From Tetradesmus obliquus (Eukaryota > Chlorophyta > Chlorophyceae > Sphaeropleales > Scenedesmaceae): a stretch of 64,000 nt of DNA. The stretch lies in the NCBI GenBank assembly GCA_030272155.1, contig CP126203.1, forward strand, positions 3,410,001 through 3,474,000. Direction: 5' to 3'. This document shows positions 36 through 64,000 of the stretch, in pieces (positions within the stretch are counted from its first letter, which is position 1; each line of letters opens with the position of its first letter). Below the pieces are notes generated by a model, which was not told where the DNA came from, made no database searches, and saw only the letters and a program-made list of their open reading frames with translations. The position numbers and the translations under genes are program-made.

Positions 36-568
36 GTACGGCTTTGGCGTGGGTGGCGAGTACCCCATGGCGTCTGCGTCTGCTGCCGAGCGCAGCCAGA
101 GCGACGAGGCGCTGCGCCACAGGCGCGGAGAGCAGGTCGTGCTCACCTTCTCGGGCCAGGGCATGGGCAACTTTGTCAACGGCTGTGTCATCTTGATCAT
201 GATGGCCTGGTTTGGCATGACTGGCCCAACCCTGGACCCCACCAAGGCCCGGGATGTGATCAGCATCCAGTTTGCTGTGGGCGCGGCGGTGTCTGTGTTC
301 ATGGTGCTGTGGAGGTGGTTCAAGCTGAAGGAGTCAGAGGTGAGCCTGCAACACAGCAGCAGCAGGATAGTAGCAGCAGCGACGGCAGCAGCACGACCCA
401 ACCTGTGTGTACAGCCATTCTGCACAAGCAGTAGTCGGAGATGGGCAGGCTGGAGATGGGTGCGATGATCTGAGCTTGGGTGCCAAAGCCATGTTTCGCT
501 TGTAAAACAGTGCTTGCATGCTGTCAAGACACTACCACCACCATCTCAGTGCCTCTGAGCACCCCTTG

Positions 569-612
<44 letters not shown>

Positions 613-2367: not shown

Positions 2368-2414
2368 GCAAGCAGCTGAGTGCCCTGGAAAAAAAGGTGC
2401 TCAGCAAGTGCGAA
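2320..2414 (+). repeat. Direct duplication of the terminal coding segment of transporter copy A
   Basis: The last 45 or so coding bases (ending in the codons for VLSKC and the stop) are repeated immediately after the stop at about 2372-2414. The second copy has several substitutions, including a run of extra A. It lies in the 3' untranslated region and is the terminal-exon counterpart of the exon echoes seen in introns elsewhere. Confidence 0.8.
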
Positions 2415-2499
2415 GCAAGCAGTGCTTACACTACTAGGAATTTCCTGAGACAAAGCAGAGCACGACACAATTGCAGTGTGCACTTTCTTTGACAGCATG

Positions 2500-5990: not shown

Positions 5991-8285
5991 ATGGTCCACG
6001 AAGATGTGGATGTTCGGGATGTACATAAGCTGCGGCGCCTGAGCAGCATCACCACCACGGCGCAGTACTCACACCCACAGTGAGACCCAGCCTTCTTCTG
6101 CTGTTGCAGCTTCACTGTAACATTTGCCAGCCTTGCTGCATGATGTAACCAACCCGATGAACACGCGGCAAGCACGTTCATAAGCATGGCAGGATTGTGT
6201 TAGGTGGTGCCATCATGCACAGCACAGAAGCGGTTAAATGCTGTTGAAATTTCACATGCATGGGTCTAGCTGTGTATTTGAAGACAGCGACCTATACATT
6301 AGGTGTGGCTGCTGACAAAAATCTTTGACTATCTGATGGCTGCTGTAAGACACCTTGCTGCTGACAAAACCCCCTCATACAGCTGAGACCAAACCCTGCT
6401 GCCCTGGGGGCGCTCTCTGCTAGTGTGTGTGCTCCTTTTGACACTTCCGCCGTCGACTGAGCCTTGCTGTATACAAGTTTTGCCCAAGCCTGCATGGAGG
6501 TTGCTGCCGCCTAACATCACCGCAACATAAACCACCCACCACCTACCAAACCTCAACCCTCCAAATGAGTCTCAGACCTGGTGAAACTGCTGTGCTGCAT
6601 GCAATTGCGCTTGCAGGAAAAGGCGTGGCTCCTGCCTATCAGCATGGTGGCACTGGTATCTGGCCTGGGCCATCCCAGGCCTGGGCATGTTCAGCGAGGC
6701 TTACATCATCTTCTCTTTAGGCCTCACCAAGCCACTGCAGACAGCTATGTTCCCCACATGCTTCAAGACACATGATGACTGCAAGGAGACCATCACGCAT
6801 GTGCAGAACTACATCCAGATCGTGGGCATCATTGTGGGTGGGTGACTCAGCAGCAGTAGTAGCAGCAGATCAGCAGGCCGCATACAGCGAGGCGTCAACC
6901 GCAACTGCATCTGCAGCAGCAGCAGCTGTTAGCGGCTGTCAGGAAACAGAGCAGTTGCAGCGTCGACTGTAGGATGATCGCTGAAGCATTGCACCAGGCT
7001 GTTTGCGCAGCACATTTAACTCTTGCCTTGTTGTCACTTAGACAATGTTTTGGGCGTGCTATGGCCAGCTAATACAGCGGCAGCCTGCAGCACAACATCG
7101 CATGTGCCAAACAGCAGCATGCCTGCCACACACGTACACATGGCTTCCTGCCGTCACCTTTTTAATCTTTTGCGAACCACTGTTTCAAACCTGCTTGCCG
7201 CCACCTTCAGGCATGCTGCTGTTTGGTGCGCTGGTGCACATCATTGGCCGTCGCTGCCACATCTAACAGCTACCTGTTACTCCTTCATCATTGTTTCCGA
7301 CTCAATCTTCATGTTCCAAAACTGCTGCTGTGTTTGATGTGTGTTTGTAGGCATGCTGCTGTTTGGTGCACTGGGTGACATTATCGGCCGCCGCTGGGGC
7401 AGCCGCATTGTGGCCAGCATCATGCTGAGTGGCACCATCCTGCTCACCTTCAGCCCCCTGGTGCCCAACCCAGCCACCTTTTTGAACCTGTACATCTTTG
7501 CCGCCACCTGGTGAGGCTTGCGGCAGCAGCAATCGCTGTGCTGCAATGCAATCATGCCTGCAGCAGTAGCCTTTGTTATCATCCATAGCTTGTATGCTGC
7601 AGTATGGTGAATGCCTTCAGGTGTGGTGCTCAAGTCTTGCGTGCATGACAACACTATGCAATTGGCAACCGATGCAGCCAGCAGGGCTGTACAGCAGTAC
7701 ACACAGCAGCAGTACAGCAAGCGCCTGCACTGCCTGCACCTCTGCCTTTCACTGACTACCCGTACTGCTGCTGCTGCTGCTGCTGCCAGGTATGGCTTTG
7801 GCGTGGGTGGCGAGTACCCCATGGCGTCCGCATCTGCTGCGGAGCGCAGCCAGAGCGACGAGGCGCTGCGCCATAGGCGCGGAGAGCAGGTCGTGCTCAC
7901 CTTCTCCGGCCAGGTGCGTGTGATGCTGTGGCGGCTGTAGGTGCAGTGTGTTGATACTTTGATTTGCGTGAGGGCGGAGAGCAGGTCGTGCTCACCTTCT
8001 CGGGCCAGGTGCGTGCATGCATGGAAGCTTGGTGCTGGGATGCACTGCGTCAGATAGTGTGGACAGCAAGATGTGCTCACTTGTTCCGGCCAGATGAGAG
8101 CAGGGAGTTGGCAGGGTCGATGCAGCTGGTTGCACTGTGTGACTGTTCATATGCGGCAGTTTTTGAGTTGTGGCCGGACACCGCAATTAACCTGGTGGAA
8201 TCAATGCAGGCAGCTGGGAGGGCATACAGGCAACAAGCAGGAGTAGGTGCAAGTGCGCTCTGGCTGGCTACAGTACATGCTGCTG

Positions 8286-8321: not shown

Positions 8322-8873
8322 ATGTGCCATCCGTGCTGCAACTACTGCTGCAGGGCATGGGCAACTTTGTCAACGGCTGTGTCATCTTGATTCTCATGGC
8401 GATGTTTGGCATGACCGGCACCACCTTGGACCCGATTGCCAGCCGCAACGTGGTCATGATCCAGTTTGCCGTTGCAGGAGCTGTGTCGCTGTTCATGGTG
8501 CTGTGGAGGTGGTTCAAGCTGAAGGAGTCAGAGGTGAGCCTGCAACACAGCTGCAGCAGCAGCAGCAGCAGGATAGCAGCCGTGGCAGCTGCGGTACAAT
8601 GGAACAATAACATCATGCAAGGTGTTTGCACCATGCATGGCAGGTGGCGCAGCTGTGGAAGAGTTGAAGTGATGATTGTAAGAACAAGGAATAGTGTGTG
8701 CAGCTGGCACAACTTGCGGCCGTGAAGGATGTTAATCTGTTGCACCATACTGCAGTGCATTGCCTGTGTTGTGCTTGTGGTGCTTACGTTGTTTTTGTCT
8801 GTGCCGCCTGCTGGTGTGGAAGACTGAGAAGCATGACTTTGACGAGCTCGCAGTACTTCTTGAACAACAACCG

Positions 8874-12688: not shown

Positions 12689-14456
12689 ATGCCAGCTAGC
12701 AAAGCGCTCCGTGTTTGCAGTTTGACTCACAAGCTCGTTAGGTACCTGCCGTCAGTCGAGCTGCAAACTTTGCTCGAGCAGCATCGCAAAGAAGGCACAG
12801 TTGGTGACACCCTGCTCGTCCTTCAGGTGCAATAGCTACAGGCTTGTGTGTAACGCACTGAAACATTCTTCAGCTGGGTCTCACTGGCCGTTGACTGTCT
12901 GCAGCATGCCCCGGTGTTCACAGTAGGCAAGCGTGGCAGTGCCCAGGACTTTCACACGGATCCTGAGGTGGGCTGACTTGATGCATCGGCTTCAGTCGTT
13001 ATGCGTCTGCCAATAACTATTTGTCGATGCAAGTAGGCATCAAGCACTCGCCAACATCTTTATGCTGCTTTAGCTGCTTGCTGTTGCTGGTGCTGCTACT
13101 GCTACTGCTACTGCTACTGCTACTGCTACTGCTACTGCTACTGCTGCAACCCATGACATTTGTCAGGGCTAAGGTCTTCACACACCAATGCAGATCAACA
13201 CTTTATAACCTTGTACTGAAAAGAATACAACTGCACCAGCACTGCATGTGCAGCCAGAGCCTCTGAGCCACCCGCCAGGCACCACACGCGCAGCTGCCAG
13301 GTCAACCCTTCATCAGCCACTGCCAGTCAAACCTCCCTCACTGCTTGCCTGCCCAATTACCCTGCAGGAGCTGCGCCGCACTGGCTTTGAAATTCACAGC
13401 GTGCCCCGTGGTGGGGAAACGACTTACCATGGGCCCGGCCAGCTAGTGGCATACCCCATCATCAACTTGAGGCAGCTGGGGCTAGGGGCCAGGGCTTTTG
13501 TAGAGGGTCTGGAGGATGCTATGGTGCAGGCAGCCGGCTGCTTTGGCATCGAGGTAAGCTAGCACATCTGCATATGAGATGTATGCCGACTGGCTAGCTG
13601 CACTGGCGGTCACTGCCATTGCAGTTTTGTTGCGTGTGTGTGCCCTGCTGTGACATACGAGCGAGTGCCTCCGCTGCTGCAGCTGGCTGGCCGTGTGGTG
13701 CAGCGCAGGACACGCAGTAGTGTGTGGTAGGTTGTTTGGGAGTGCCAGTATGCAGCAGTGTATGTGGCTAGAAGCGGGACATGTGCTACTGTACATGCAT
13801 TACGTGTCCTGCAAGCCGCAGGAGTTGCTTCAGCCGTTGTCCTGCAAGCAGCTGCGTCACACGGCAGCCGTCCTGCAAAGGCCCGGCTTTACACAGCGGT
13901 CATCTTACAAGCAGCTGCTTGCAGTCAGCACGTCGGGAGTGAGATTGCTGGTCCTGCAGGCGTGCATGGCGCAGCTGCTGTGCGATTTTGCATCCTGGCG
14001 CAGCTTAGCGTATGGAAGCAAATGGGCTGCAGCTCTTTTGAGGGTGTGAAGCTGACAGCTGCTCTGCAAGCACGCAGGAGGCGGCCCTCCTGCAAGTGCC
14101 AAGCGCAGCTGTCCTGCAAAGCCGCACGGGCAACGTTCCTGCAAGCACATGCAGCAGCTGTCCTGCAATCGTTCAATAGGCGCCCATCATGCAGCCCAAC
14201 AGCTGGTTGCATGTGCTGAGGCTGTGCCACAGGCCCTCAGCAACAGCACCGCACAGAATCAATTCAGGGCTGCTTGCCGGCTAGCGCTGACAAACAGCAT
14301 CTGCGAGTTCGAGCACTGGCCATGTCGCGACACCATGCTGCTGAATTCCGTACTGCGCTGATGATGATGCCATTGTTGCCATCACCTGCGCTGCTGCTGG
14401 TGCTGCTGCAGGCGCGAGGGCGCGTGCCAGGCAAGACTGGTGTGTGGGTGGGTGAG

Positions 14457-14495
<39 letters not shown>

Positions 14496-14551
14496 ACGTG
14501 TTGCAGGCGCGAGGGCGCGTGCCAGGCAAGACTGGCGTGTGGGTGGGTGAG

Positions 14552-14593
<42 letters not shown>

Positions 14594-15596
14594 AACGTGT
14601 TGCAGGCTCGAGGGCGCGTGCCAGGCAAGACTGGCGTGTGGGTGGGTGAGCGCAAGATAGGCGCTGTTGGTGTGCGCATCTCTCACGGCATCAGCAGCCA
14701 TGGCGTCGCCCTCAACGTGACAACAGACCTCAGCCATTACAGGTGGGCTGGGCAGCAGGCAGTTCCAAGCTGCATTATTGTCTTATGTAGAAATACTTGA
14801 CATCACATTACATATACACAGCTGCGCACCTGCAAGCAATGCTGGACCAAGAGAGCCCTGCCAATACTCTCCTGGTGTGTGGCTGCTATACCCGAGGGGG
14901 CGCTGATCCGCCTGCTGCAGCTGAAACTCAGAACGCAGGGGTGGGTCTACAGGCATGGCTTAGCCAGCAACGGCAGCAGCAACAGTGCCAAAGCCATTTG
15001 CAGCTGGTGCTGCAAAAATCGGGTTGATGCCAGCATGCAGCTAGCTGTGTGGCAGGTTGTGAGTCGCGCATGCTCAGCAGCAGCTGCTGCCCTGCTGCTG
15101 CTGCAGCTGCAGTGCACTGCTGCCTGCAACACTAAACACTAAACAACACTAAACACTAAACACTAAACACTAATTTCTGTGCATCATAGTCAGTGGGTAT
15201 TGCCTAGGCAGCAGTGCTAGCGTATGTTGCCTTTCGGCTGCTGGTGCGTGAGCTGGTGCGTGAGCTGGTGCGATGCGCAGAGCGCTTGCAAATCATCCAC
15301 AGCGCCATCCTGTGTGTCACCTCTGTTTATTGCTTTGCAGGCACATTGTGCCCTGTGGCACTCCAGACAAAGAGGTGACTTCAGTCCAGCGGGAGTTGCA
15401 GCAGGCTGGCACATATTTTGAAGCTGGTGGGAAGGGCGGGGATGCTGCCAAAGATGACGCGCTGCTGCAGGACACTGCACCAAACCTGCTGAAAGAAGCA
15501 GAACATCACCTGGTGCGCTGCATTGCCGGTGTATATGGCTACACAGACGTGCAGGACATTGTGGAGAAGCAACTGCTGCCAACCACGGCACGCTAG
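12689..15596 (+). CDS. LIP2: Octanoyltransferase (LipB family; plant LIP2-like)
   Basis: Transfers the octanoyl group from octanoyl-ACP to lipoyl domains, the first step of protein lipoylation, normally in mitochondria in plants and algae. Exons: 12689-12826, 12905-12967, 13368-13553, 14606-14742 and 15341-15596, in phase throughout, 259 residues, close to the usual family length. Motifs in order: [18 protein letters not shown] (residues ~39-57), [18 protein letters not shown] (80-97), [20 protein letters not shown] (136-155) with the catalytic-type Lys146, and [13 protein letters not shown] leading to HIVPCG with the catalytic Cys180. ATG 12689 is the first in-frame methionine before the conserved domain. 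The N-terminus ([19 protein letters not shown]) is short and basic, which could serve mitochondrial import, though I cannot confirm it. Exon 4 is preceded by two decayed copies of its own start. Confidence 0.93.
13088..13146 (+). repeat. (TGCTAC)n hexamer microsatellite in a LIP2 intron
   Basis: Roughly nine units of a CTGCTA/TGCTAC hexamer sit in the intron between LIP2 exons 2 and 3. It is a variant of the CTG tracts found in other introns, again pyrimidine-rich on the sense strand. Confidence 0.9.
14412..14605 (+). repeat. Exon echoes: two extra copies of the LIP2 exon 4 start
   Basis: Copies begin at 14412 and 14507, and the functional exon begins at 14606. Each copy has a CAG acceptor, about 46 near-identical bases encoding [15 protein letters not shown], then a (CTG)n tract in place of the rest of the exon. 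Spacings are 95 and 99 bp, so the segment looks like a tandem array crossing the acceptor. Confidence 0.95.
15130..15173 (+). repeat. (CACTAAA)n interstitial heptamer repeat
   Basis: Five perfect CACTAAA units plus one partial unit, interrupted once by CAA, lie in the last LIP2 intron. The reverse complement, TTTAGTG, differs by one base from the plant-type telomere unit TTTAGGG. No pure telomeric unit is present. Confidence 0.85.
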
Positions 15597-25256: not shown

Positions 25257-26450
25257 TCACAGCTCTGTATGGCCTCCGCCCGCCGCCACACCTTGCTGCT
25301 GCTGCTGCTGCTGCCTTGCCTGCGCCATCTGCTGCATGCGCTGCTCCAGCAGCAGCGGGTCCTGCTGGTATGGCATAAGTCCGAAGCACCACATCACGCC
25401 CCACAGCACAAACACCATGCACATGATCTTCACAGCCTGCAGGTGAGCAAAATAACAGGCCAGCAGCAAGCAGCAGCGAGCAATGCAAAGTTTAGTGCAG
25501 CTGAAGACAGCAGCTTGCAAGACACTTACACGGTTGCTTACAAGCAATGCGCGTGAGGAGCGTGCCGGACGGTGGTGAGTAGTTGGGAAATATCTTTGCA
25601 TGCATGCGCCGCGGTCGCTTGCTGAGCCACTGATAGACATAACCTGGCGCACATGAACAGTCCATGGGGATTCTGGCAGTTGCACGCAGTTTGTGAACAC
25701 GGTGAACCCGTGCCGAAGCACCTTGCAGCCACCAGGCTTGCACCCGCTTCAGCATCTGTTGATCACATAGTACAGCTGTACACTTTGCCACACCTGCTAG
25801 AAGCTGTTGAGCACTGCAAGCAAGAAGTGACGCTATCGATGCCTCTTCCCACCTGCTTGAAGCTGCCAAGCAGTACGACTCTGACAGTTGCGCCATGCAA
25901 TGCAGCGGTCGTTCAAGTCTGCTCTTCCCACCTGCTTAAGCTGTTGGCACTTCTTATCGCATGCACTCCCAAAAGCTCTCCTCAAGCGGCTTCAGGCCGC
26001 AGCGCACAATGTACAACAGGGACGCCATGCTGTGTACTTATCGCACCTGCTTGAAGCTGTAGATCTATTTGCATTGCATTTGCACCAGCCAGATGTCCTC
26101 CCACCTGCTAGGGCTTCCCAGTTTCTACCATAAGCAGTGCTGCCGTGCAATGCAGACTTCTGGATACCCTGCTGCCGCCCACCTGCTTGAAGCTGTTGAG
26201 CACTTCGTACCTCATGCGCTCCCAAAAGCTCATGTCGGTCACAACACACAAGGACACCGTGCAATTCAGCTGTGCTTATCAGCCCACCTGCTTGAAGCTG
26301 TTGAGCACTTCGTATCGCATGCGCTCCCAAAAGCTCATCTCCTCAAGCGGCTTGAGGCCGCGGCTGCGAGCAGCAGCAGCGGCTTCCGCTGCAGCAGCAG
26401 CCTGCGCCTGCTGCAGCTGCAGGTCCAAGTCCAGCTCAGCATCTGATTCA

Positions 26451-26482: not shown

Positions 26483-26595
26483 CAACAGCAGCAACATCGT
26501 GCATCAACCAGTGTGCGCAATGTTCTGTATGTGCAGCTGCAGGTCCGGGTCCAGCTCAGCATCTGAATCGTGAAGCAACGCCAAGCAAAGCAGCA

Positions 26596-26635
<40 letters not shown>

Positions 26636-26711
26636 GCATTGAGCAGTGTCTCAGAGGTTTGAATAATTGCAGCTGTAGGTCAAGGTCCAGCTCAGCATCT
26701 GGTTTGATTGT

Positions 26712-26771
<60 letters not shown>

Positions 26772-27778
26772 TCATGCATCAAACAGTGCACGTGATGTTC
26801 TGTATGTGAAGCTGCAGGTTCAGATCCAGCTCAGCATCTGGTTTGTGAAACAGCAACACAAACAGCAGCAGCAGCAGCAGCAGCAGCAAACTTCACACAC
26901 ACTGCCTGAAGGATCCAAGAAGTGCAGCTGCAGGTCCACGTCCAGCTCAGCATCTGTTTACGTGGAGCCAAGCCAAGCCAAGCAGCAGCAGCAGCATGCA
27001 TTGAGCAGTGTCTAAGACGTTCACTAAGTGCAGCTGCATGTTCACGTCCAACTCAGCAAGTACTTTGATTCAGCAACGCAGCAGCAGCAGGCGGCAAGCA
27101 GCAAAAGCACGTGTTAAAGAGTGCGCAAAGAGAGCTGATCGAGTGTGATTGCGGGTTGAGGCACAGGTCACATCACCAGCTGAATACACAGCAGGAGCAG
27201 CTGGAGCAGCAAAGTCACTGCGGTGGCCCAGTGGCTGTGGTTGCATGCCTGCAGTGCGGTGCGCACTGTGATGCCAGCAGGGTACTGCACATATATCAGC
27301 ACAAAGCTGTACAGCTGCGCGGCAGCTGTGAGGGCGCAGCACCATCCGTATGCCAATAAGACAACAGGCAGGTACCAGACCATCCAGGTACACGCGACAC
27401 ACCCGGACGTATCCAGCACGGCGTAATCAAGCAAGTAAGCACGTTATAATGCGCACCTGCAGCATCGGCTGGCGCCGCAGGCTGGATCTCTGCAGACGCT
27501 GCCGCACTTGTCTTCCCGCCCATGGCAGCAGCACCAGCAGCGGGCGTTGCAGCCGGCCAACCCACTATAGCTGCCACAGCAGCGCTGCGAGCTGCTGCGG
27601 CTGCTGCGGTCAAACCTTGGACCTGCTGTGCGTCCTGCTCCATGAGCTGTGCCAAGGTTTGACCAGGTTTGACCAGCACGTCCTGCAGGCCCAGGCGCAT
27701 GCCGCACTCCTGCATCACTGAGTGGAACTTTTTGAGCTTGGCTGCGACTGCCATGATGTGGCGCTCGCCCTTGTACCT

Positions 27779-42997: not shown

Positions 42998-44698
42998 ATG
43001 GAGGCACAGCGGAGGCTGCAAATCATTTCGGGGCATTTGGTGCCTCATGGCGCATCTCGGCCCGATGTGCTGGCGCTGCAGAGGCTGCTAGATCACGACA
43101 ATCTTGAGCTACGAGCTCGCATGAAGGACTTCTTCAAGGATGAGCTCTATGTGCCTCGGTAGGCAGCACCGGCATGGCTGCAGTAGCCAGCAGCAGCAAC
43201 AGCTTTCGGCATGCTTAGTGCAGGCATGGCATCATTCCAGGAGTAAGATAAGCAATGAAACCGCAACATTTGGCTTGCTAAATACCAGCTGGCAGCGGTT
43301 CGTGCATGTAGCTTGCAGGAAGGGTAGTGCAGCAGCACTTGCAACAGCAGTAGCCATGCAACACAGGCCTTTACTGCAGCAACATGATGGAGAAGCTCGG
43401 GAATGTGCACCATTGCTGTTAAATACGATAGCATGCACATCTTTGGAGCAGAGGTCCCCTGGCTCATGCTCCTCCTTTTTTGCATGCAGCCCTGCCAGGG
43501 CACCAGGCTGGTGCATGCAGCATGCAAGATTCAGGGCAATGGCTGCAGCTGTGCTTCTGCAGCAAACAGGCACGATGTTATAGCAGGCAGCATTCCCCGC
43601 GGGGCCATTGCTGGTGGTTTGTATTAATCAACATCACCTCAGTATCCTGCAACAGCAAACACCCAGCCGCTTTCCTGTCCCCCATGTCTCTGTCCCCTGT
43701 CCTGCAAGCTCCCGCACCTTTCCCGCAAGCCCGCCCCATTTCCTGCACGGCCGCCTCAATTCCTGCAAACCCTTTCCTGCAAACTTCCCCTGCATTCCTG
43801 CAGGTATGACATGGACCTGCGCTACAGCCGAGAGCTGGCACTGCAGCGTCTGGCCAAGTTCTGCCGCGCAGGCTTTGTCAGTGTGACAGACTTCAGGCTG
43901 TCCCCGCTGAAGATCTTTGCGGCACACGAGGTGGCGGCGCTGGTTGACCCCAGCATGGCGACAAAGATGACAGTGCAGTTCAACCTGTTCGGTGAGCTGC
44001 TTTTCATCAAACCTGGCAGCAACAGCCGCAGCAGCAGCTAGTTTGTAAAGATGGACAGTCTAGCATGAAAAAAGCAAAGCTGCGTACCTTGTTTGTGTAC
44101 CTGGTTGACGCAAGCATGGCAATCAAGACGACGGTGCAGTTAAACGTGTTTGTTGAGCTGCGTTTCATCAAACCTGGCAGCAACAGCCGCAGCAGCAGCT
44201 AGTTTGTGTACCTGGTTGACCCAAGCATGGCGACAAAGATGACGGTGCAGTTCAACCTGCTCGGTGAGCTGGGTATTTGAACCATGTAGCAGCAGCAGAA
44301 GCTACATTGTATCCCTGTGTGTTACCTGCAATTCTCTATAGTGTATCTCTGGTAGACCCCCTAATGGCACAAAGATGACTGTGCGGTTTACCCTGTTTTG
44401 TGAGGAGCATTGGCTCTGATGCTGGCAGCAGCAGCAGCAGCAGGGTTGCCACATGTACAAATTTGGTTGACCGCTTTGGCAAGCTGTTAGGGCCTGCTTC
44501 AAATCCCACTGTTGCCCACAGCAGGTGCGCTGAAAGCAGACACTGCAGCACCTGCTGCAGCTTCAGCAGGCACTCTACGCTGCAGACCTCCAGCAGCAGC
44601 AAGTAGACTGGAGCTGCGAGGTTTGAGGCAGCAGCAATGGCTTGCGGCAGCACGCCACACAATGTACTTTTGAGGTGCTGTTGCCCTGAAGCTTGCAT

Positions 44699-44734: not shown

Positions 44735-44827
44735 GCTGCTGATTGCTGTGCAGGCGGCACAGTGCTGAAGCTGGGCACTGCCCGCCACCACCAGGGCCTG
44801 CTGCTTTACTTGAAGCAGGCTCAGATG

Positions 44828-44875
<48 letters not shown>

Positions 44876-44954
44876 GCAGGCGGCACTGTGCTGAAGCTGG
44901 GCACTGCCCGCCACCACCAGGGCCTGCTGCTCCACTTGAAGTAGCCCTCAGATG

Positions 44955-44985: not shown

Positions 44986-47584
44986 TGTGCAGGCGGCACA
45001 GTGCTGAAGCTGGGCACTGCCCGCCACCACCAGGGCCTGCTGCGGGGCATCGACAATGTGGACGCCATTGGGTGCTTTGCGCTTACAGAGCTGGGCTTTG
45101 GTGAGGATGGTTTCATGCAATTGTGCGGGCTTCCAGCCTGTTGAGACGTTCTGAGTGCTTGCTGCATTACAGCTTGTTGAAATCAGCTGGTTGCTTGCCG
45201 ACAGCAAGACGCCATTGGCTGCTTTGCACTGACAGAGCTGGGCTTTGGTGAGGAGGGTTTAAGGTTGTGCGGGCTTTCAGCATTTTAAGACCTGCTGGTT
45301 GCTTGCTGACAGCAAGACGCCATCGGCTGCATCGTCCTGACAGAGCTGGGCTGTGGTGAAATCCTGCAGTTGTGCACCAGACCCTTACTGTCATGTGGTC
45401 AGTATCAAAGCCTGTTCTGCGTCGTGCCTCCCCGTTTCCCACTGCTGCGCCGCTGCATGACTGCCGTGCCTCTCCTGCAGGCAACAATGCGGTGGAGATG
45501 CCTGCCGTGCCTCTCCTGCAGGCAGCAATGCGGTGCCTCTCCTGCAGGCAACAATGCGGTGGAGATGCAAACCACCGCCACCTGGCAGCCATCCAGCAGC
45601 AGCTTCACCATCCAACGCCAATGCATACAAATAACATTGCGCCCACTGCTTGTTCACACTGCATCTGCTTGTGTCCTGCAGGCAACAACGCGGTGGAGAT
45701 GCAGACCACCGCCACCTGGCAGCCAGCCAGCGGCACTTTCATGATCCACTGCCCCAGCACACTGAGCCAGAAGTACTGGATCGCCAACAGCGCTGTGTCA
45801 TGCCTGCTGCTTGTGCCTCCTGTCTCCTGCAGGGAACAGCACGGACCACCGCCTGCTCTCAGCCGGCAATTTTGTCATTCACTGCTTACTTGAGACGTAC
45901 CTGTGCGCCTGCTGCTTTTGTCCTGCAGGCAACAATGCGGTGGAGATGCAGACCACCGCCACCTGGCAGCCATCCAGCGGCACTTTCATCATCCACAGCC
46001 CCAGCACACTGAGCCAGAAATACTGGATCACCAACAGCGCTGTGCACGCGCAGTGGTGCGTCGTGTTTGCGCAGCTGCTGATGGGCGGCCAGAACCACGG
46101 CATCCACGGCTTCCTGGTCAGGTGCGGGGATGTTATATGACTGGCATAACACATTGTTAATTGTTACATCAGGGTCAGCGCAGTGCACGCGCAGTGGTGC
46201 GTGGTGTTCGCGCAGCTGCTGATGGGCGGCAGTAACTACGGCATCATCGGCTTCATGGTCGGGTGCGGGGTTGCTATGTGACTGTCATAACGATGTTGTC
46301 AATGTCACATTGTAGTCAGTGCGGTGCACGCGCAGTGGTGCGTGCGTCTCTCACCACCATCACTGCTGCTGCTGCTGCTGCCGCCGCCGCAGGATCCGCA
46401 ACGACGACATGACGCCCTGCAAGGGTGTCACCATCCACGACATGGGACACAAGATGGGCTGCAATGGCGTGGACAACGGGCAGCTGTCCTTTGAGCACTA
46501 CTCAGTGCCACGGGAGGCGCTGCTGAATGCATTCAGCGAGGTGGCAGCGGACGGCAGCTTCAGCAGCAGCATCCCCAAGGCGCGGGACAGGTTCCTCAAG
46601 GTGTGTATTACATGACATGTTACATGACATGTTACATGCCTTTACATTCAATCGTCAGATTGGTGTGTGTTCCCTTACAAGTATGCTGCGCAGCACTTTG
46701 CTCGCGGGGTGATGTTTATTGTTCTGCTGCACAGCTGGTTATTGTCTCGTGCCTAGCATGTGAAGCGCTGGTATACAACACTGCTTTATATAGATCACCC
46801 ACGGGCTTTGAAACCCAGCATTAATCTGTTACTCCTTGCAGTTGGCGTACCAGCTGCTGTCGGGCCGCATCTGCATTGCAAGCATGATGCAGAGCGTGAG
46901 CAAGCTGTCCATGCCTGTTTGAAAACCCAACAAGCAAATCAGACATCACTTTGCCACTCCCTGCAGGTGGCAGACCAGCTGCTGTCGGGCCGCATCTGCA
47001 TAGCCAGCATGATGCAGAGCGTGAGCAAGCTGTCGCTGACCATCGCAATGCGCTACGCCGGCAGTAGGCTGGCTGTAGGCCCCACCGGCCACAGCGACAT
47101 GCCTATTTTGGACTACCAGCTGCAGCAGCGCGCGCTGCTGCCGCTGCTGGCACGCACCGTGGCGCTGCAGGTGGGCCTTGCGCAGTCGCTGCTGCGGTGT
47201 CAATCGTGCTGCTGTTTTGTTCCACCGTGTCATATTGGGTGCTGCCGCTGCTGGCACGTACCGTGGCGCTGCAGGTGGGCCTTGCGCAGTCGCTGCTGCG
47301 GTGTCAATCGTGCTGCTGTTTTGTTCCACCGTGTCATATTGGGTGCTGCCGCTGCTGGCACGTACCGTGGCGCTGCAGGTGGGTGGGGCCTGTGTGCTTG
47401 GTGCGGCTTGCACTGCTTCTGTGTTGTATGGTTAGTGCGGTGCAGACAGTGCCTGCTGTGGGTGTGTCAAGATGCTTATAGTATCTAGTAACACGTGCAC
47501 ATGCTGTGCGGTCACATGCTGCTGCCTGCTGCTAGCAGCGGCCGCTGATGGCGCTGGAGAGGTTGGAATTTAGCTCACACCTTA

Positions 47585-47627: not shown

Positions 47628-49044
47628 ACCAGATCGGGCTCAACTATGTGAAGGACCGCTGGGCAGCCGCATCAGGCTTCGACGGCAAGCCAGTGGACCC
47701 CAAGGTGCGGCGCAGAAGCTAGACCTCTTACCCTTGCAAGTAAAGCCCTGGTATCGGTCCTTAGCAGGCGCAGCTGCTGGGCCTGCAGCTCGTGTCCCTG
47801 CTGCACGTGTTTGCATGCAGCTGTGCGCACATACCATGACATGACTTTGCGGCTTCTGCTGCTGCTGCTGCTGCAGGTTGGCCTGGAGGTTGTGGTGCTG
47901 TGCTGCGCCATCAAGCCGCTGTGCGCGTGGAACGCAGAGACGTGCGCAACAACCAGCAGGTGTGCAGCAGCTGGCTGTTCATCTTCCTTGCTGCCTGTTC
48001 TCTCTTCTTGCATGTGGCCTGCCAGGTGCTTGCGCTTCAAAGTTTACAAGGGAGTTATCATTTTGGAACCTGCCTTGCTGTGCTGCAACGAAGCGCTGTG
48101 GGTCCAGGGCTATCTGAACATGTGTCGGGCTGCTGCTGTGTGTATTTTTGCGCTGTATTGCGCTGTGTCACATCCGTGCCTCATTGCGTTGCTGCGGTGT
48201 GTGCTGCAGGGAGCGCTGTGGCGGGCAGGGCTACCTGAGCGTGAACCGCTGACTGCTGCGTCACACTGCTGTGGTTCGCATGTGCCACACTGCTGGCTGT
48301 TCACATATGTCACACTGCCGCCATGTGGTTGTGCTGCTTTGTTTCTGCAGGGAGCGCTGCGGCGGGCAGGGCTACCTGAGCGTGAACCGCTTTGGGGAGC
48401 TCATCGGCTTTGCGCATGCAGGCATGACGGCAGAGGGAGACAACAGGTGCGGCGGCTGGCTGGCAGCCCCTGCCTTTCTTGTTGTGAGTATTACAGTACA
48501 GTAATCTTATAATTGCTAAGGAGCCGCTGAACATGCTGACCTGGGTGGCTGTTGCAGCACTTAGGCGGCTGTTGCCAAAGTGTAATAAACATGTTACCGT
48601 GTCATTTCTGTTTCTGCAGGGTGCTAATGCAAAAGGTGGCTAAGGAGCTGCTGGGCATGCTGACCTGGCCAGGCATCGCAGCACGCCTGGCAGCAGCAGA
48701 GCTCGCAGCAGCGCCGCTGGCAGCAGGCAACCTGGCAGCGCTGCATGCAGCAGCGGCGGCGGCTGGCAGCAGCAGCAGCGGCAGCGGTGCAGGGCTGGAT
48801 TTGGAAGTGCTGCGGAAGATGATGCAGGTGTGTGTATCTTTGAGAATGTAGACTTTAGTGTGCTGGTGTTCTACTGCTACTGCTGCTTGATCAGCCCTGC
48901 TGGGTGCTTGTTTGTTACTCGTGCTGCTCTGCCTTCCGTGTATTGCGCTGGCACTTGTGTGCGGCAGATGCGCGAGATGCGGCTGCTGTGGCACTTGCAA
49001 CTGTGATGCGGCGCAGTCGGCTGCTATTTCAGCGCTGCTGCTTC

Positions 49045-49082: not shown

Positions 49083-49507
49083 GTATTGATTGTTATGTTG
49101 TGTCACGCGTGCACTGGTGTTACATTTGTGCGCAGGTGCGTGAGATGCGGCTGCTGCGGCAGCTGGCCAGTGTGATGCGGCAGGCCTCAGCGGCGGGCGG
49201 CTTCTTTGACGCCTGGATGAAGCAGCAGAGCGACCTGGTGCAGGGCGCGGCGCAAGCCTTCGCAGGTGCGGCACAAAGCGTGTTGCTGCTACTTGTTCAG
49301 CAGTTCTTTTTGCAAACTGTTTGTCAACAGTTGCGTCTGGCGTTGATGTCAGCGCGTGCAGCCCAAAGCTCCCTTGCCATTTGTTGCAGACTCATCAAGC
49401 CTTATGCTGGTGCTGCTGCAGAGCGTGAGGTGCTGGAGGCGTGCCTGCGCTGCCTGGAAGGCCCAGGCATGACCCCCGGGCTGCATATCAATAGCCACAC
49501 GCATCAA

Positions 49508-49540
<33 letters not shown>

Positions 49541-49733
49541 AGAGCGCGAGGTGCTGGAGGCCTGCCTGGAGGGCCCAGGCATGACCCCACCTGCCTACGT
49601 GTAGTGCTCACACCAACCCTGCTGCTGCTGCTGCTGTTGCTGCTGTGCTGCTGCTGCTACCGCAGGGCGTGCCTGCACCGCCTGGGGGGCCGGGCTTGTC
49701 TTCACCTGCCTATGCATAGTGCTCAAACACATC

Positions 49734-49776
<43 letters not shown>

Positions 49777-56495: not shown

Positions 56496-59400
56496 ATGGA
56501 GGCAGCGCTGGGCATGCTTCCAGCTGCTGGCCCCAGCGCTGTGCATCCTGCAGCAGCAGGCGCAGCAGGTGGCCCAGCCCTTATGCAACAGCAGGCAGCA
56601 GCTATTGCTGCAGGTGCAGCAGCAGCAGCAGCAGCAGCAACAGCAGGCTCAGGAGGAGCAGCAGCAGGGGAGGATGGTGCAGCAGGGGAGCCGGCAAAGA
56701 AGGTGTGGCAGGCTAAAAGCAGCATGCCTTACACATCATTCTGCATGCTTCGTTGTGAGAACATGAGAGCGATGCATATGCAGCAGACCTCTCATACGGT
56801 GTGACTGGTTGATGCTGATCACACGGCACGCCATGTGCAGCAGCGCCTGCTTTGATACCTGCTTGATCATCTGCCTGTGTGCATCATGCCTGCAACTGCG
56901 ACTGTAATGCTGCGCTGCTAGCTCTGTCAGCTGTCATGCACACACCATAAATGCACAAGCTTCACCTTTGCATGACAGCCTGTGCGAACTGCTGTGCATG
57001 CCTATCTTTTGCTATAATTGTCTGATTGCAGCGCCGGCGGCGGCGCAAAGGCCTCGTGGGCGACCTCAATGTAGCGCTGTACATCAAGCAGCAGCAAGCG
57101 CGCGGCTCCACACGCAAGTGGCGGCAGCAGTGGTGCGTTGTGCCTGGCCGTGTGCAGCTCGAGCTTGTATATTTGGGAAGTTGGCATGCACTCTTCACAC
57201 AGCGTAGTGGCTGCTGCTGTTCCGCTGCCTGGTTGCCCATGTAGCAACCCCGCAGCACCTGCACAGCAATCGAGGAGCAGGAAATGTTGACTCGCTGCAG
57301 CTGCATGTGCGCTGCACGCATGCTGCTGCAGTTGATGCGCAGCGAGTGCAGCTGCACGCATGCTGCTGCAGTTGATGCGCAGCGAGTGCAGCTGCACGCA
57401 TGCTGCTGCAGTTGATGCACAGCGAGTGCAGCTGCACGCATGCTGCTGCAGTTGATGCACAGCGAGTGCAGCTGCACGCATGCTGCTGCAGTTGATGCGC
57501 AGCGAGTGCAGCTGCACGCATGCTGCTGCAGTTGATGCGCAGCGAGTGCAGCTGCACGCATGCTGCTGCAGTTGATGCACAGCGAGTGCAGCTGCACGCA
57601 TGCTGCTGCAGTTGATGCACAGCGAGTGCAGCTGCACGCATGCTGCTGCAGTTGATGCACAGCGAGTGCAGCTGCAGCCAGCCCACTCAAGAGTTACCTG
57701 CGCAGTCCGCCAGTGTCCGATGCAACGCAATCTAGACAGCAATGACAGCAGCACACCCAGGCTCGTCCATCACCGCACTGGAATGCACCCGGCTGTTGTA
57801 GCTTTCTCTGCTGCAGCAGCTTGTAACCACTTCTCCTGTCGCGCTGCCACTCTGCTGCTGTTTCATGTGGCTGCAGGGTGAGTGTACGCACCATTGTTGG
57901 GGGTGGCGAAGTGAAGATGCTCAAGTGGGTGTCAGGTGAGGCAGGGCCAAGCTGGTGAGAGAGTGGTGGTCCAGGTTTCAGGTGTAGAGTGTGGAAACTA
58001 GCTGTTGGGTTCCTGCATAAGGCTCAAGTGTGCTGGGCCTAGCAACCGTTGCTGCCCCAGCTAGCGGCTGCAGGCTGGCAGTTACAACTCGATTGAAAAT
58101 CATGCGTCTGTTTGACTCCTCACAATTGCTGCCCCTGCATTGCAGACACACCACCCTCAGCACCCACCACAACCATTCCTGGCTTTGCCAAACTTCCAGG
58201 TAGGAATCTGACCATGTATCTATGTTGCGACCTGTCAATTGCTTCTTCAATTGCAGACACACCACCCTCAGCGCCCACCACAACCATCCCTGGGTTTGCC
58301 AATTTCCAAGGCTTTGCAGCAGCCAGCAAGCGCAAAGAGAAAGACCCGAGCAAGGAAGCAGCCAAGGACGCAGCAGCAGTAGCAGCAGCAGGCGCCGCAG
58401 GGGTAGCAGAGCAGGCCAAGCAGCAAGGCAAGGCAGCATCACTTTCTCGGCTGGGGTCTTCTGCATCGCTGCAGAACACACCAGGCGGTGCTGCTGCTGC
58501 TGCTGCTGGGGGTCTGCCGCCGTTACCTGGCTCCCACAAAGCAGCTGCAGGAGGTAGCAGCGCTGCTGGTGGTAGCAGCAGCTACAGCAAAGCCCACCAC
58601 CAGCAGCAGCCGCAGCAGCAGCATGGCCACAAGTCAGGTGCAGCGGAAGATCGGCATAGAGGAGGGCCAGGCGGTGCTGTTGTGCCGCTTACTGCTGAGG
58701 AGCTCGCAAGCTATAGTGCTGCTGCAGCTGCTGCTCTGCCAGTGGATGTGCTGCCGCTGCCGCCGTCTGTGCCGAGCGCAGCGCCGGCAGCAGCAGCAGC
58801 AGCGCACGATGCTGCTGCTGCAGCAGCGCCCCGCGACATCAAGTCGATCGCCGCATCCATTGCAGCGGCGGTTGCGGAGGCTGCTGCAGGCGGCGGCTCG
58901 ACTGCAGCAGCAGCGGCGGCACCCGTGCCAGACCTACCAGCAGCGGCCGGCAAGAAACGAAAGAAGTCGGCAGCAGCGACGACAGACGGCAGTGCAGCAG
59001 CGGCATCAGACTCTGCAGCAGCAGGCAGCGGCGGCTTGGATTTCGAGCCTGTCATGACGGGCCCACCTGGCGCGCAGCGCTTTGGCTGCCCCACATGCGG
59101 CAAGAGTTACACCTCGCTGGGGTCGCTGCGCAAGCACATGCATGTGCATGGAGAGAAGAGCTTTTCGTGCACCTTCCCTGGCTGCAAGAAGAGCTTTGCG
59201 GATGCGGAGAAGCTTGAGAAGCACGCCATTAAACACACCGCTAGCAAGGACATCCAGTGCGAGGCGTGCGGCAAGGTGAGGTCGTGTTATGACAGCGTGT
59301 CAAGACCTTGTGTTATGCCTCTGTGTTATGTCATCAGTCAATGTTGTGAGCTGCACGCCATCAAGCACACCGCCAGCAGCGACATCCAGTGCGAGGCGTG

Positions 59401-59825
59401 CGGCAAGGTGAGAGCGTGTTATGACAGTGTGGTATGCCAGATTTTTCTCCCAATATGTTGAACAACACATGTCACTTCATTCAGCCTGCTTACATGCAAC
59501 ATGGTGTTCAACCTGCGCACTCTACATAATGCATCCCATCGTGTCATGCGCTGTGCTGCTGCTGCTGCTGTGCTGCCGTGCAGTGCTTCTTCGATAATCA
59601 ACCTGCGCACATAACAAAACAAACAAACTACCTGCGCACTTGTCACATTGCATGCTGTGTTGCTGTGTTGCCGTGCAGTGCTTCTTTACAGTGTTCAACC
59701 TGCGCACACACTGGAAGCAGCTGCACAAGCACCTACCTATGCCTGCAAGCGTGATGACCAAGACAGCAGCAGCTGGAACAACGCCCGCTGCATCAAGCGC
59801 TGCAGCTGGCTCCGACGCCAGCTGA
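56496..59825 (+). CDS. BCL7-like domain plus three C2H2 zinc fingers (chromatin/transcription protein)
   Basis: Five exons (56496-56702, 57032-57132, 57877-57935, 58257-59275, 59679-59825), in phase, 510 residues. After an Ala/Gly/Gln-rich N-terminus, residues ~70-121 read RRRRRKGLVGDL..., then RKWRQQWVSV and VKMLKWV. This matches the BCL7 signature (RKWEKKWVTV...LxIxKWVP) of SWI/SNF-associated BCL7 proteins, and the motif is assembled only after splicing three exons. A long low-complexity region follows (Ala, Gln, Ser; KKRKK nuclear-signal-like near residue 360). Three C2H2 fingers come next: FGCPTCGKSYTS...HMHVH (~399-421), FSCTFPGCKKSF...HAIKH (~427-451) and IQCEACGKCFF...HWKQLH (~455-478). 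The last is split by an intron. The fusion suggests a DNA-binding chromatin-remodeller subunit (inference). A 40-bp minisatellite and several exon echoes lie in its introns. Confidence 0.72.
57321..57680 (+). repeat. 40-bp minisatellite, nine units, with higher-order pattern
   Basis: Nine units start at 57321, 57361, 57401, 57441, 57481, 57521, 57561, 57601 and 57641 (TGCTGCTGCAGTTGATG core). They differ mainly at one base in a GCGC/GCAC position: two GCGC, two GCAC, two GCGC, three GCAC. That order suggests a 160-bp block was duplicated. The array lies in the intron between exons 2 and 3 of the BCL7-like gene and leaves long open frames on the minus strand. Confidence 0.95.
58145..58199 (+). 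repeat. Exon echo: BCL7-like gene exon 4 start
   Basis: A TTGCAG acceptor-like end is followed by ~53 bases repeating the codons for TPPSAPTTTIPGFA. The functional exon begins at 58257, so the spacing is about 112 bp. Confidence 0.93.
59346..59408 (+). repeat. Exon echo: BCL7-like gene exon 4 end
   Basis: Sixty bases repeat the codons for HAIKHTAS.DIQCEACGK plus the donor GTGAG, about 133 bp after the real donor at 59276. Either donor would produce an in-frame zinc-finger junction locally, so alternative splicing is conceivable. Confidence 0.95.
59581..59612 (+). repeat. Exon echo: BCL7-like gene exon 5 start
   Basis: An acceptor with the flank GTGCTGCCGTGCAG and ~28 bases resembling the codons for CFF...NLRT lies 97 bp upstream of the real exon at 59679, with a frame-breaking change. 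A weaker fragment (GTGTTCAACCTGCGCAC) is at about 59502-59518. Confidence 0.88.
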
Positions 59826-60534: not shown

Positions 60535-63500
60535 ATGCGTAGATGGCATGAAGACAACGATGCTGCATCTATGCGGAGAACAATCACCAAGCAGCAACGC
60601 AGCGAAGAAGGCGTTCCATTCAGCAACGGAGATGCTGGGATGCCTGGCTTCGGCGCAGACGATTTTCCTGGGAAGCGGAACGTTGCTGCAGGTGTGTGCA
60701 CCCACCTGACCAGCAGCAGATGCAGCCATGTGCTTTGGCTGATGCTGCCAGTCAAACCTCTCATGAGCAAAAGGTATAAGGGACTCCTTGCTTATGTATC
60801 TAGAGTCCTCACTGCAGCACCCTTGCTCCCTGACACATGCAGCTCACCATCAGCTCAGTAAGTCGGCACAGTCAGCTGTATGCTTGCATCAGCCAGTGAG
60901 CGTACATGCTGCTAGCTGAAAGTGCTGCTGCCGCTACATCAATAACAGCACTCCACACTGCAGTCTGGATACAGCAGTCAGCAGCGACGCAGTACACGAT
61001 TTACTCTGGCACAGTTGCTCCATGTCCTGCAAGCTGCACGCGAGGCACCTGTCCTGCAAGCAACAGCCATGCATCAGCGCACATACACCCCTCACCTCTG
61101 CACGTGTCAACCCTCTGCGCTGCCTCCTCTGCACACCTGCCTGCCCTGTTTTACCATGACCACCACGCCATACGACAACACCACAACAACAACGCACGTA
61201 TCCCCGCAGCTTACAGCAAGGATAGCGGCTATGCCGGGTACGCCAAGGCAGACGTCTCGCAGAGCACAGTTAACCTGGTCACATGCGTGCTTGGCGCCGG
61301 AGCGCTCGGCTACCCTTTCTGCTTCAAAGAGTGCGGCCTGGTGCTGGCAACCCTCATCATGTTCGTAACACTGGTGGCCACGCGCATCAGCTACCAGCTG
61401 CTGCTGCACTGCGGCCAGCTGTGCACTCGCAGGACATATGAAGGCATCGCTGAGTCAGCATTAGGCAGGGGCGGCAGGACGCTGCTGGAGCTATGCATTG
61501 CAGCAATGAACTTGGGAGCGCTGGTGGCGTTTCTGGACATTCTGGCAGATGTGCTGTCAGCAGTGGCAGGCACAATAATCCCGCCAGGCGCAGAGCCGTC
61601 ACGCCATGCGTACATCACAGGTGCGGCTGCAAGTTCTGTTGACGGAGAGTTTGCTGTTGCATGATACATGATAGGGGGCTCCCCCTGCGAGTCCTGCAGC
61701 AGTTGCATGACGCAACCCTGCTTGACACCGACAGGAAAACAGCATGCGATGCATGTGATGGGATCGCAACCTGCAGCAGCCACCAACAGCAGTCAGCAAG
61801 TAACAGTTCTTGGGGTTGCCATGCCTTGCATGTCTGTTGTTATGACACGTTTGTATGGGGCAGCAGTGCTGCACGTTTACATGACCACACTGCCATTCGC
61901 TCTGCCTGCCTGCCTGCCTGCATGCCTGCTGCTGTTTGATGCGCAGGTGTTACTGTGGTGGGGGCGCTGCCAGTGTGCCTGGTAGTGCGGGACCACGCTC
62001 TCATTGCAGCGCTGTCAAATGCAAGCGTGGTGTTTGTGGTCATCTTTGCAGTGGTGGTGTTCTGCACAGCCTTTGCCCCATACGCAGCAGCAGCACTGGG
62101 CTTCAAATGGGCTCTGAGCTCAGTAGCAGCAGCAGCAAGCACAGCACCCGCTGCTGCAGGCACTGGCAGCGGCGGCGCAGCAGCAGCAGCGGCGACGCTG
62201 ATGCCACCCGTGCTGCACATGTGGCATGTGCAAGGCGTGCTGGTGTCGCTTCCTGTGATGGCGTATGGCTTCACAGCACACCAGTACTACATGGGGATTT
62301 ACACCATGCTGAAAGCACCCAGCGTGCGCAAGATGAAGCATGTCACTGACCTGGCGCTGCTGATCTGTGCGGGTGTGTACTGGACAGTGGGTGTAGGCGG
62401 CTATGCTACGTTCGGGGAGCGCACGGCTGGTGACATCATCCGTAACCTTGGCGGTCAGCGGACGCTAGGGTTGCTGGGCGCGTACGCGCGCGCGCTGAAG
62501 CTCTGTTACGGCATGGCGATCCTTGGGAACATCCCTCTTGTGATCATGCCCTTCTATTCAATTCTAAAGCCGCTGCTGCCAGCAGACGAGCAAATCCTGC
62601 AAGGGACAGCCAACCTGGCAGGTTCCTGCAGCTTAGCAGGTGCCAAGGCAGCAGCAGCAGCGGCGGCAGCTGCCGATGGCAGCTGTGCGGGCGTACTGGG
62701 CACTGGCGGCTATGCCAATCGCAGCTGCAGCCCGCTGCGGTCAAGTTCAGGTGTGAAAGCAGGTGTGAAGTCTGCATTGAAGCTGAAGACGAGCTGCGGC
62801 GGAGAGGAGCTCATGGAAGGTGGCAGCACAGCAACAGCAACAGCAGCCAGTTACGGGGTGGATTTCGAGGGAGGCAACGGCATGCTGCAGCAGCAACAGC
62901 AGCCGCTGCTGCAGCCGCCGCCCTGGCCGGAGCAGCGGCAGCAGCAGCAGCAGCCGTACCAGCAGCAGCAGCTGAACCCGCACTTGGCGACCGAGCAGGC
63001 TACTTACGTGCTGACCGGCATGCAACATGCGCTGGTTGTGTTTCTGGTGCTGGGTTTAGGGTTGGCCAGTGCGCTGTGGCTGCCCAATGTTGAGCTGATC
63101 TTTGGTCTGACTGGTTCCACGGCATCTGTATTAGTTGCATTCATCATCCCAGCCATGTGCTTCATCAAGCTCTATGAGTCAGCACCGGAGCTTGGAGGCG
63201 GCGGCAGCAGCTGGGAGAGCAGCGGGCCACGCGGGGTACTTAGCGCAGTATGCTACATATGCTGCGGCTGCTGCGACATCCCCAGCTGGCTGTTCAGCTT
63301 CTGCAACAGCAGCAGCAGCACGGGCAAGGGCCACGGATCGCCCGGCAGCAGCAGCAACGGCAGCAGCAGCAGCAGCGGCGCAGGCGCGCAGCAGCAGTAT
63401 CATTCGCCTGTGAAGGGGCAGGTGCTGGTGGTGCCGGAGCTGAGGGCGCAGTGGATGTGCCGGCACAGGCTGGCGGTGCTGCTGCTGGTGTTTGGAGTCA

Positions 63501-64000
63501 TCAGGTGAGATGGTGGCTGGCTTGCAGTCTGCTATGACAGTCCTATATCTATAAGATGTATCTCATAGATTCTAGCCCCAGCTGAGGGCGCAGTGGATGT
63601 GCCGGATGCAGCGCTGCGGCGGCTTTCTTGATGACGTTCAAGCCAGCCGAGGCACATGTGTATGCTGCACGATGATGGTGCTGCTCAACAGTGAGAGCAT
63701 GTGCTTGTGCTGGTAGCAGCAACAGATGCAGCCCTGTGCTGTGCATGGTGCGTTCACACAGGGTTGTCTGCTTCATGAGGTGCTGCCTGCCTGCTTGCCC
63801 TGCTACGTCTGTCTCCCAGCGGCAGTCAACTTGCTTTTCGCCTCCACTGCACTTCAATCACGTCGCTAGCAGCTGCAGTGCTCTCAACTCCTTACATTGC
63901 CTGTGCCTGCCTGCCCTGCCCTGCCTGTCTCTGCTCTGCTGTTTATTGCTGCCCATGTGCTGCTCTCGCTGCAGTGGCCTGCTGTGCACTGACGCCATCC
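60535..64000 (+). CDS. AAAP-family amino-acid transporter (3' truncated by window edge)
   Basis: Proton- or sodium-coupled amino-acid/auxin permease-type transporter (Aa_trans fold, SLC38-like). Exons: 60535-60691, 61210-61620, 61947-63504 and 63975 to the window end, all in phase, about 717 residues visible. The cytosolic N-terminus begins MRRWHEDNDAASMRR. TM1 has the family motif QSTVNLVTCVLGAGALGYPF (~residues 67-86). SLPVMAYGFTAHQYY corresponds to the conserved TM5 'FxxHQ' site. GVYWTVGVGGYATFGE is the TM6-7 segment. An unusually long Gln/Ser/Gly-rich loop (~420-525) precedes the later helices, and a second Ser/Gly loop follows (~600-680). ATG 60535 is the first in-frame methionine; the vacuolar or plasma-membrane location cannot be decided. 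Confidence 0.85.
63578..63612 (+). repeat. Exon echo: 3' region of AAAP transporter exon 3
   Basis: AGCTGAGGGCGCAGTGGATG and the following CCGG repeat exon bases 63438-63470 (codons for ELRAQWMCR) about 140 bp downstream, inside the next intron, then diverge. Confidence 0.88.

Follow-up and report, generated by a model that had tools for sequence, protein, structure and literature searches.

What process leaves partial copies of exon edges in and beside the genes of a green alga, and what becomes of those copies once they are made? The question is raised by a stretch of 64,000 nucleotides from Tetradesmus obliquus (the window), which covers 3.41 to 3.47 Mb of contig 13 in a genome of 104.66 Mb and 17 contigs. 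The G+C content of the window is ~56%, in agreement with the 57% listed for the species (PMC5966456). A preliminary description of the window had named these copies exon echoes and counted about 40 of them. We asked how common such repeats are, which rules of spacing, side, and orientation they obey, and what kind of event may have produced them.

Family scans of the 449 open frames of at least 75 amino acids in the window returned few domains, and for this reason exons were taken from a small, self-trained ab initio gene finder, whose output contains many weak exons. An acyl-CoA oxidase gene was recognized at about 43.9 to 49 kb by a Pfam ACOX match; one frame of this region had no match in PDB.

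Local direct repeats and a preferred step of ~120 bp

Repeats were sought in 314 kb, made up of the window, twenty 10-kb samples, and one 50-kb block. Since a BLAST self-comparison overlooked short-offset repeats that were present in the TRF list, every offset from 13 to 1200 was rescanned, with simple repeats (CAG/CTG) masked ahead of counting. The scan yielded 340 direct pairs, which fall into 105 clusters (28 in the window, 67 in the sample, and 10 in the block). At a score of at least 60 and a distance of up to 1 kb, the window held 55 direct and 0 inverted pairs and the 200-kb sample 136 and 4; at the looser score of 40 over the same distance, the counts were 80 and 10 in the window and 178 and 16 in the sample. 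A second scan of the 200-kb sample returned 233 direct pairs against 3 inverted. Chance as a source of the repeats is ruled out by these counts, and copies that adjoin in direct orientation are what tandem duplication produces; the earlier observation that the echoes lie next to their source on the same strand is thus borne out, both in the window and in the sample.

Twenty-six repeat clusters in the window have a spacing of at least 60 bp, and 15 of them show two copies. By our own count, 25 of the 26 contain ~75 copy intervals, or roughly 50 extra copies, compared with the earlier figure of about 40; the 26th cluster is a 40-bp minisatellite. True minisatellites are few (57307-57676 is an example), and at least 54 of the 68 pairs with a step of 80 to 160 bp consist of partial units rather than whole units arranged head to tail. 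Most copies have diverged, to a maximum of about 30%, and some copies are 100% identical.

The striking part of the pattern, which the preliminary description overlooked, is a preferred step. The smallest offset per cluster lies between 80 and 159 bp in 64 of the 105 clusters, below 80 bp in 18, between 160 and 239 bp in 6, and above that in 17, with a mode of ~120 bp and an additional peak at ~240 bp. Pair offsets likewise peak at 100 to 149 bp, drop at 150 to 190 bp, and rise again at 230 to 250 bp, with weaker rises at ~360 and at 440 to 490 bp. Among 47 families of partial units, the offset has a mean of 118 bp and an SD of 20. The 50-kb block is poor in clusters, and 5 of its 10 fall within 80 to 159 bp. 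A further 19 kb held 11 of 16 clusters at 80 to 160 bp and 0 inverted pairs; this set was not blind, as two of its five loci (the D1-protease gene and its relative on contig 16) had been scanned earlier at looser settings, and all five flank genes of two families instead of being randomly chosen places. The relative on contig 16, a second protease gene, has repeat clusters at steps of 105, 113, 132, 134, and 135 bp. By eye, the ~120-bp step also occurs in a few pairs away from exons, which argues for a mutational origin of the step rather than for selection on splicing.

We also asked whether the sequence between the copies is itself a dispersed element. In a comparison with 264 kb, 57 spacers gave 3 non-self matches. 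Comparison of spacers with one another gave 21 weak matches, of 11 to 25 nt among the matches listed, and two spacers searched across the whole genome had no copy beyond their own locus. As dispersed copies were found neither for these two spacers across the genome nor, apart from the 3 matches, for the 57 in the 264 kb, a mobile spacer is rejected.

Position of echoes relative to exons

The echoes and ambiguous copies assigned to exons of the window are collected in Table 1. In the acyl-CoA oxidase gene, six more exon edges besides those of the exon at ~44994-45104 carry echoes in our own reading. The copy at 46176..46344 differs, by hand count, by about 14% in its exon part and 27% in its intron part. 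A weaker, older copy of the 5' end of exon 48351-48446 was noticed by eye at ~48091-48128. Between the two zinc-finger copies at 58139..58302, all 3 differences are synonymous in the frame read. In-frame coding repeats or entire small exons are possible readings of the repeats at 14410-14646, 26500-27058, 29802-30080, 49414-50291, 58139-58302, and 59215-59431.

Table 1. Echoes and related copies in the window (positions are those of the window)
Feature	Position	Strand	Basis and remarks
Echo of the 5' end of a transporter exon (exon start 7351)	7209..7256	+	Alignment, exon edge; offset 140, 85% identical
Echo of the 3' end and donor of the exon ending at 7913	7974..8015	+	Offset 95, 98% identical
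Echo of the 5' end of the exon starting at 8919	8814..8853	+	Offset 105; AG lost
Complete ~40-nt exon present three times, both splice sites included	14410..14646	+	Offsets 95 and 99; possibly repeated exons (ambiguous)
3' end and donor of exon 26288-26388, echoed twice	25927..26236	-	Offsets 356 and 105
Echo of the 3' end of exon 28381-28520	28143..28215	-	Offset 247
Echo of the acceptor and 5' end of the exon starting at 36182 (model) or 36169 (by eye)	36032..36102	+	Offset 119
Two echoes of the 3' end and donor of acyl-CoA oxidase exon ~43940-43996	44091..44274	+	Exon end by eye
Two echoes of the 5' end of acyl-CoA oxidase exon ~44994-45104	44753..44944	+	Exon by eye
Echoes at 45208-45251 and 45316-45359, from the 3' end and donor of exon ~44994-45104	45167..45359	+	
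Echoes of the acceptor and start of the exon starting at 45929	45462..45797	+	
Tandem copy of the exon end at 46118-46121 as a full unit of 141 bp, with a partial third copy	46176..46344	+	
Echo of the acceptor and 5' end of exon 46967-47170	46831..46909	+	Offset 125
Nearly identical pair of echoes from the 3' end and donor of exon 46967-47170	47246..47383	+	Period 104, 99%
Echo of the acceptor and 5' end of exon 48351-48446	48204..48250	+	Offset 141, 98%
Two copies in a zinc-finger gene	58139..58302	+	Offset 111; ambiguous, frame open across the two copies
Zinc-finger exon ending at 59275: copied 3' end and donor	59347..59431	+	Offset 132; ambiguous, in frame

The preference for exon edges was measured on the 68 pairs with a step of 80 to 160 bp, using several exon sets and 300 random placements as a control. 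With the 267 strong exons, 26 pairs had one copy on an edge and the other free of exons, against 7.1 expected (maximum, 18), and with the 435 reliable exons there were 28 such pairs against 11.6 (maximum, 24). No excess was found with 950 predictions (25 versus 21.1) or with all 978 (24 versus 21.9), perhaps in part because the echoes themselves are called exons in these loose sets. Pairs in which both copies touch a strong exon are depleted, with 1 found and 10.2 expected. Twenty-seven of the 68 pairs touch none of the 435 reliable exons; by eye, about 16 of these resemble missed exon edges, and the remainder are minisatellite, intronic, or unclear. Among 196 introns between strong exons, an edge-type pair was found in 8 and a wholly intronic pair in 6, so that the edge preference is weak there. 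Median intron length is 391 nt with an echo (n = 13) and 186 nt without (n = 183), a comparison confounded by the greater room that long introns offer.

Echoes were said to follow a side rule, with copies of the 5' end of an exon upstream of it and copies of the 3' end downstream. Across the window, sample, and block, the rule was kept in 33 pairs and broken in 0, with 48 of the 81 pairs not scorable. The claim therefore stands for every pair that could be scored, and its weight is to be read against random placement, which keeps the rule in 11.0 pairs and breaks it in 3.6, so that geometry alone yields 75%. Echoes of acceptors are as common as echoes of donors, with 22 and 20 entries, respectively, among 40 pairs. 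Position and side are thus those that selection acting on duplications would be expected to leave, and confident edges show some excess.

Splice signals and constraint

The splice dinucleotide is retained in 32 of 40 echoes (16 of 21 acceptors and 16 of 19 donors), and splice-site scores of 2.3 and 3.2 in echoes lie near those of real sites (3.4 and 5.0) and far from those of random sequence (about -10), as the earlier notion of decoy splice sites had it; such sites thus persist. By eye, most echoes lack the second splice site, with the copies at 58139 and 14410 as exceptions. On the exon side the match has a median reach of 45.5 nt, compared with 8.5 nt on the intron side (42 entries). The motif AGGT at the copied junction, also judged by eye, is absent at 36032, 48204, and 58139 and present at 7879, 47142, 50584, and 59215.

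Mismatches in the exon part of 40 pairs number 33, 51, and 104 at codon positions 1, 2, and 3, or 55% at the third position; of the codons changed, 85 are synonymous and 80 nonsynonymous, and 3 stops were counted. A frame-free test of 74 pairs, intron parts included, fits 44% at the third position. By our rough estimates, a neutral echo should show a share of ~45% and a pair of constrained copies ~78%; judged from these substitution patterns, the echoes look unconstrained or nearly so. Coding constraint on both copies is, on average, unsupported by either the codon-position or the frame-free test. The offset is divisible by three in 17 of 40 pairs (13.3 expected) and not divisible in 23.

A D1-protease gene with protein evidence

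Exons of a D1-protease gene elsewhere in the genome are identical to PDB entries 1FC6/1FC7 over 54, 53, and 89 consecutive residues; this structure comes from Scenedesmus (now Tetradesmus) obliquus. One exon, L031:1909-2068, matches 1FC6 at 53 of 53 residues. Its start, together with the acceptor, is echoed 91 nt upstream at L031:1816-1866, with 86% identity. The translation of this echo had no PDB match at an E value of 0.01 and is absent from the crystallized protein. The intron halves match at an offset of 109, with 80% identity over 45 nt of CTG-rich sequence, so that a unit of ~109 bp was probably duplicated and acquired an indel afterwards. The strict scan missed this echo, so our repeat counts are conservative. 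The D1-protease gene is also the one place where the direction of gain is polarised. The preliminary description held that only the copy contiguous with the exon body stays functional; this is shown at the protein level in the D1-protease gene, and elsewhere the ab initio models suggest it.

Whole unit or exon patch

If the duplicated unit spans the splice junction, as had been proposed, the intronic half should have left traces. Just beyond the match, the flanks are mostly unrelated: of the pairs that allowed the test, 3 of 31 had significant similarity. When the alignment was extended from an anchor into the intron, the result was significant in 20 of 40 pairs; the other 20 had no significant intronic-half homology past 6 nt. 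Furthermore, in 19 of the 40 pairs the spacer resembles the outer flank of its own echo better than the flank of any other locus, with 1 expected, and the same own-flank test on partial units, made independently of gene models, was positive in 18 of 54. An earlier flank test gave 8 of 36 on the intron side and is not relied on, as masked letters can match each other. Full-unit tandems are also present, at 46035-46344 and, with 100% identity, at L018:2627-2959. Traces of the full unit thus remain in about one third to one half of pairs, which weakens the idea of sharp copying that takes along the splice signal only.

The intronic half is missing even where the exon half is highly similar: of 20 pairs with an exon half at least 92% identical, 11 show no intronic homology. 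We simulated neutral decay of 118-bp units at several indel rates, and 0.37 to 0.58 of edge pairs ended with at most 14 nt of matching intron, compared with 0.76 observed; plain neutral decay as a full account falls short of the observed skew between intron and exon. We conclude that many duplicated units crossed the junction and that their intronic half vanishes faster than simple decay predicts. The earlier proposal of a junction-spanning unit is accordingly sustained for many cases, with about half of pairs retaining no trace of the intronic half, a loss for which simple decay does not account. Patch copying, later deletions, and homogenisation of the exon half are candidate causes.

Proposed mechanism and alternative explanations

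The best explanation, to which we assign a probability of roughly 60%, is a genome-wide duplication of DNA on the same strand at ~118 bp, filtered by selection and leaving echoes that decay. A mutational process would duplicate short stretches alongside themselves with a step of ~118 bp (SD, about 20). Its step may originate in the fill-in and joining of staggered breaks. Duplications internal to an exon would break genes and intronic ones would be neutral, whereas those that cross a junction would be tolerated because correct splicing of the copy joined to the exon can continue. The leftover exon edge, splice site included, would become intron, that is, an echo, which would decay and could be duplicated again to give arrays at multiples of 120. 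Its exon-derived half would remain recognizable longest because the partner of that half is held by selection. Each event would add ~120 nt and one decoy splice site to the intron. We infer that the process is mutational and blind to splicing and that its net effect is to lengthen introns.

The main competitor to whole-unit duplication, possible though rather unlikely, is patch copying, in which a template switch would insert only a ~55-bp copy of a stretch ~118 bp away; the order copy, spacer, copy would then be primary and the full unit never duplicated. Such events would readily leave the partial units seen in at least 54 of 68 pairs, the sharp ends at 97 to 98% identity (7879/7974 and L002:3429), flanks that are mostly unrelated, and lengths of copy and spacer that are anticorrelated (-0.43, 47 pairs) with a tight sum. 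They would less readily leave the full-unit traces in 19 of 40 and 18 of 54 pairs, the full-unit tandems at 46035-46344 and L018:2627-2959, or the D1-protease intron half that is homologous at offset 109 with an indel. We consider it improbable that echoes are functional, as regulated decoys or alternative splice sites kept by selection: the 80 nonsynonymous against 85 synonymous codon changes, with 3 stops in 40 pairs, the frame-free estimate equal to the neutral expectation, and the missing second splice site in most echoes (58139 and 14410 excepted) speak against this, despite the retention of the splice dinucleotide in 32 of 40, the end of homology near the splice signal, and a third-position share (55%) somewhat above the neutral-echo estimate.

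Ordinary tandem exon duplication or in-frame protein repeats, with both copies translated, would suit the zinc-finger region at 58139-59431, the copies at 14410-14646, and ankyrin or polyQ regions, where offsets are in frame or frames are open, as well as the slight surplus of offsets divisible by three (17 of 40, with 13.3 expected). As a general account it is slightly less probable still, as 23 of 40 offsets are not divisible by three, most echoes cover a single exon edge, and the D1-protease protein lacks the echo. The least credible of the alternatives invokes introners or assembly artefacts: copies do carry splice sites along and some are 100% identical, but spacers are locus specific apart from weak matches of 11 to 25 nt, the repeats are local and nearly always in a single orientation, and divergence, which reaches about 30%, marks most copies and sets them apart from assembly stutter.

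Comparison with known duplications

The preliminary description knew of no standard feature class for echoes, a statement that is too strong, since tandem duplication across an intron-exon boundary is in print for the potato RdRp gene (Ma, Lan and Niu 2016, PMC4974935). As described there, the potato case is like the echoes in being a local direct duplication of the 3' end of an intron and the 5' end of an exon, splice signals included; it differs in that it created a new intron and turned part of the copy into exon, whereas here the copy remains within the old intron, and many loci share a ~120-bp step. In the intron gain at AGGT described by Rogers, splice sites are likewise supplied by tandem duplication. 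That route requires AGGT within an exon, whereas several echoes lack the motif and others have it, and the echoes copy the site of an existing intron. Tandem repeats of Chlamydomonas and Volvox are concentrated close to intron-exon junctions (PMC3887541); they share with the echoes their occurrence in green algae and their location at intron ends, and as reported there they are short motifs such as GT/AC, unlike the ~120-bp single-locus duplications with exon sequence found here. Small tandem duplications also form at DNA breaks with 3' overhangs (PMC8355091). These are short, same-strand, and tandem like the repeats described here, but the passages concerned deal with human genomic insertions that are short (<100 bp) and with breaks induced in mouse cells, and mention neither a ~120-bp mode nor a link to introns. 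In the open-licence PMC literature, searched by title and start of abstract, we found no report of genome-wide echoes with a ~120-bp step; single boundary duplications are known, and their scale and step as observed here were found in no paper of that literature.

Implications for intron length

Introns in relatives of Chlamydomonas have medians of 198 to 343 bp and lack the usual peak at 60 to 110 bp, and the driver of intron length is likely ancient according to Craig and others (PMC8226300). The mean intron of T. obliquus, at 462 bp, is the longest among five algae listed in Table 1 of PMC5966456. Duplication of exon edges is likely a route to long introns. If the 43 clusters counted in the sample and block (250 kb together) are scaled up to all 104.66 Mb, the genome would hold about 18,000 such loci. 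We tentatively suggest, while holding it somewhat less probable than its opposite, that duplication quantised in length at ~118 bp per step operates genome-wide, that introns grow by dateable layers of echoes, and that the species may owe its unusually long introns to this growth. Echoes would then give intron growth a readable record, with layers that can be aligned to their source exon and dated. They would also provide a great many natural experiments on how the spliceosome passes over a near-perfect decoy that lies ~120 nt away from the true site, and the preferred step points to a specific error of DNA repair or replication that should be possible to find.

Repeats in the window and at other loci

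A Pfam search of the tail-specific protease gene on contig 16 (L029/L030), a relative of the D1-protease gene that has the protein-proven echo, returned a partial match that is repeated, with a stop codon. Several repeat clusters were also observed in this gene. In the window, CTG runs separate the copies of a nine-copy array, and an open reading frame extends over part of it; the array may be a gene, an echo array, or both.

Direct repeats in the sampled loci L007 and L005 are longer and do not belong to the 120-bp series. The repeat in L021 could represent terminal repeats or a fresh duplication.

Location and properties of repeats (L0xx, comparison stretches of the same genome with local coordinates)
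Feature	Location	Copies or length	Step, offset or separation	Identity
Protease repeat clusters	L029/L030 (contig 16, 3538856-3540700)	several	105-135 bp	
Array	window 49414-50291	9	~120 bp	
Minisatellite	window 57307-57676	9.3	40-bp unit	98% matches
Direct repeat	L021:7107-7606 (contig 1, near 5.007 Mb)	500 bp	597	~100%
Direct repeats	L007:2042-2874		~443 bp	
Direct repeats	L005:1152-2073		~390-402 bp	
Similar segments	window 33-160, 7787-7914	128 bp	7.75 kb	95%

The two similar segments in the window are apparently corresponding exons of two adjacent transporter genes, which would point to recent tandem gene duplication or conversion.
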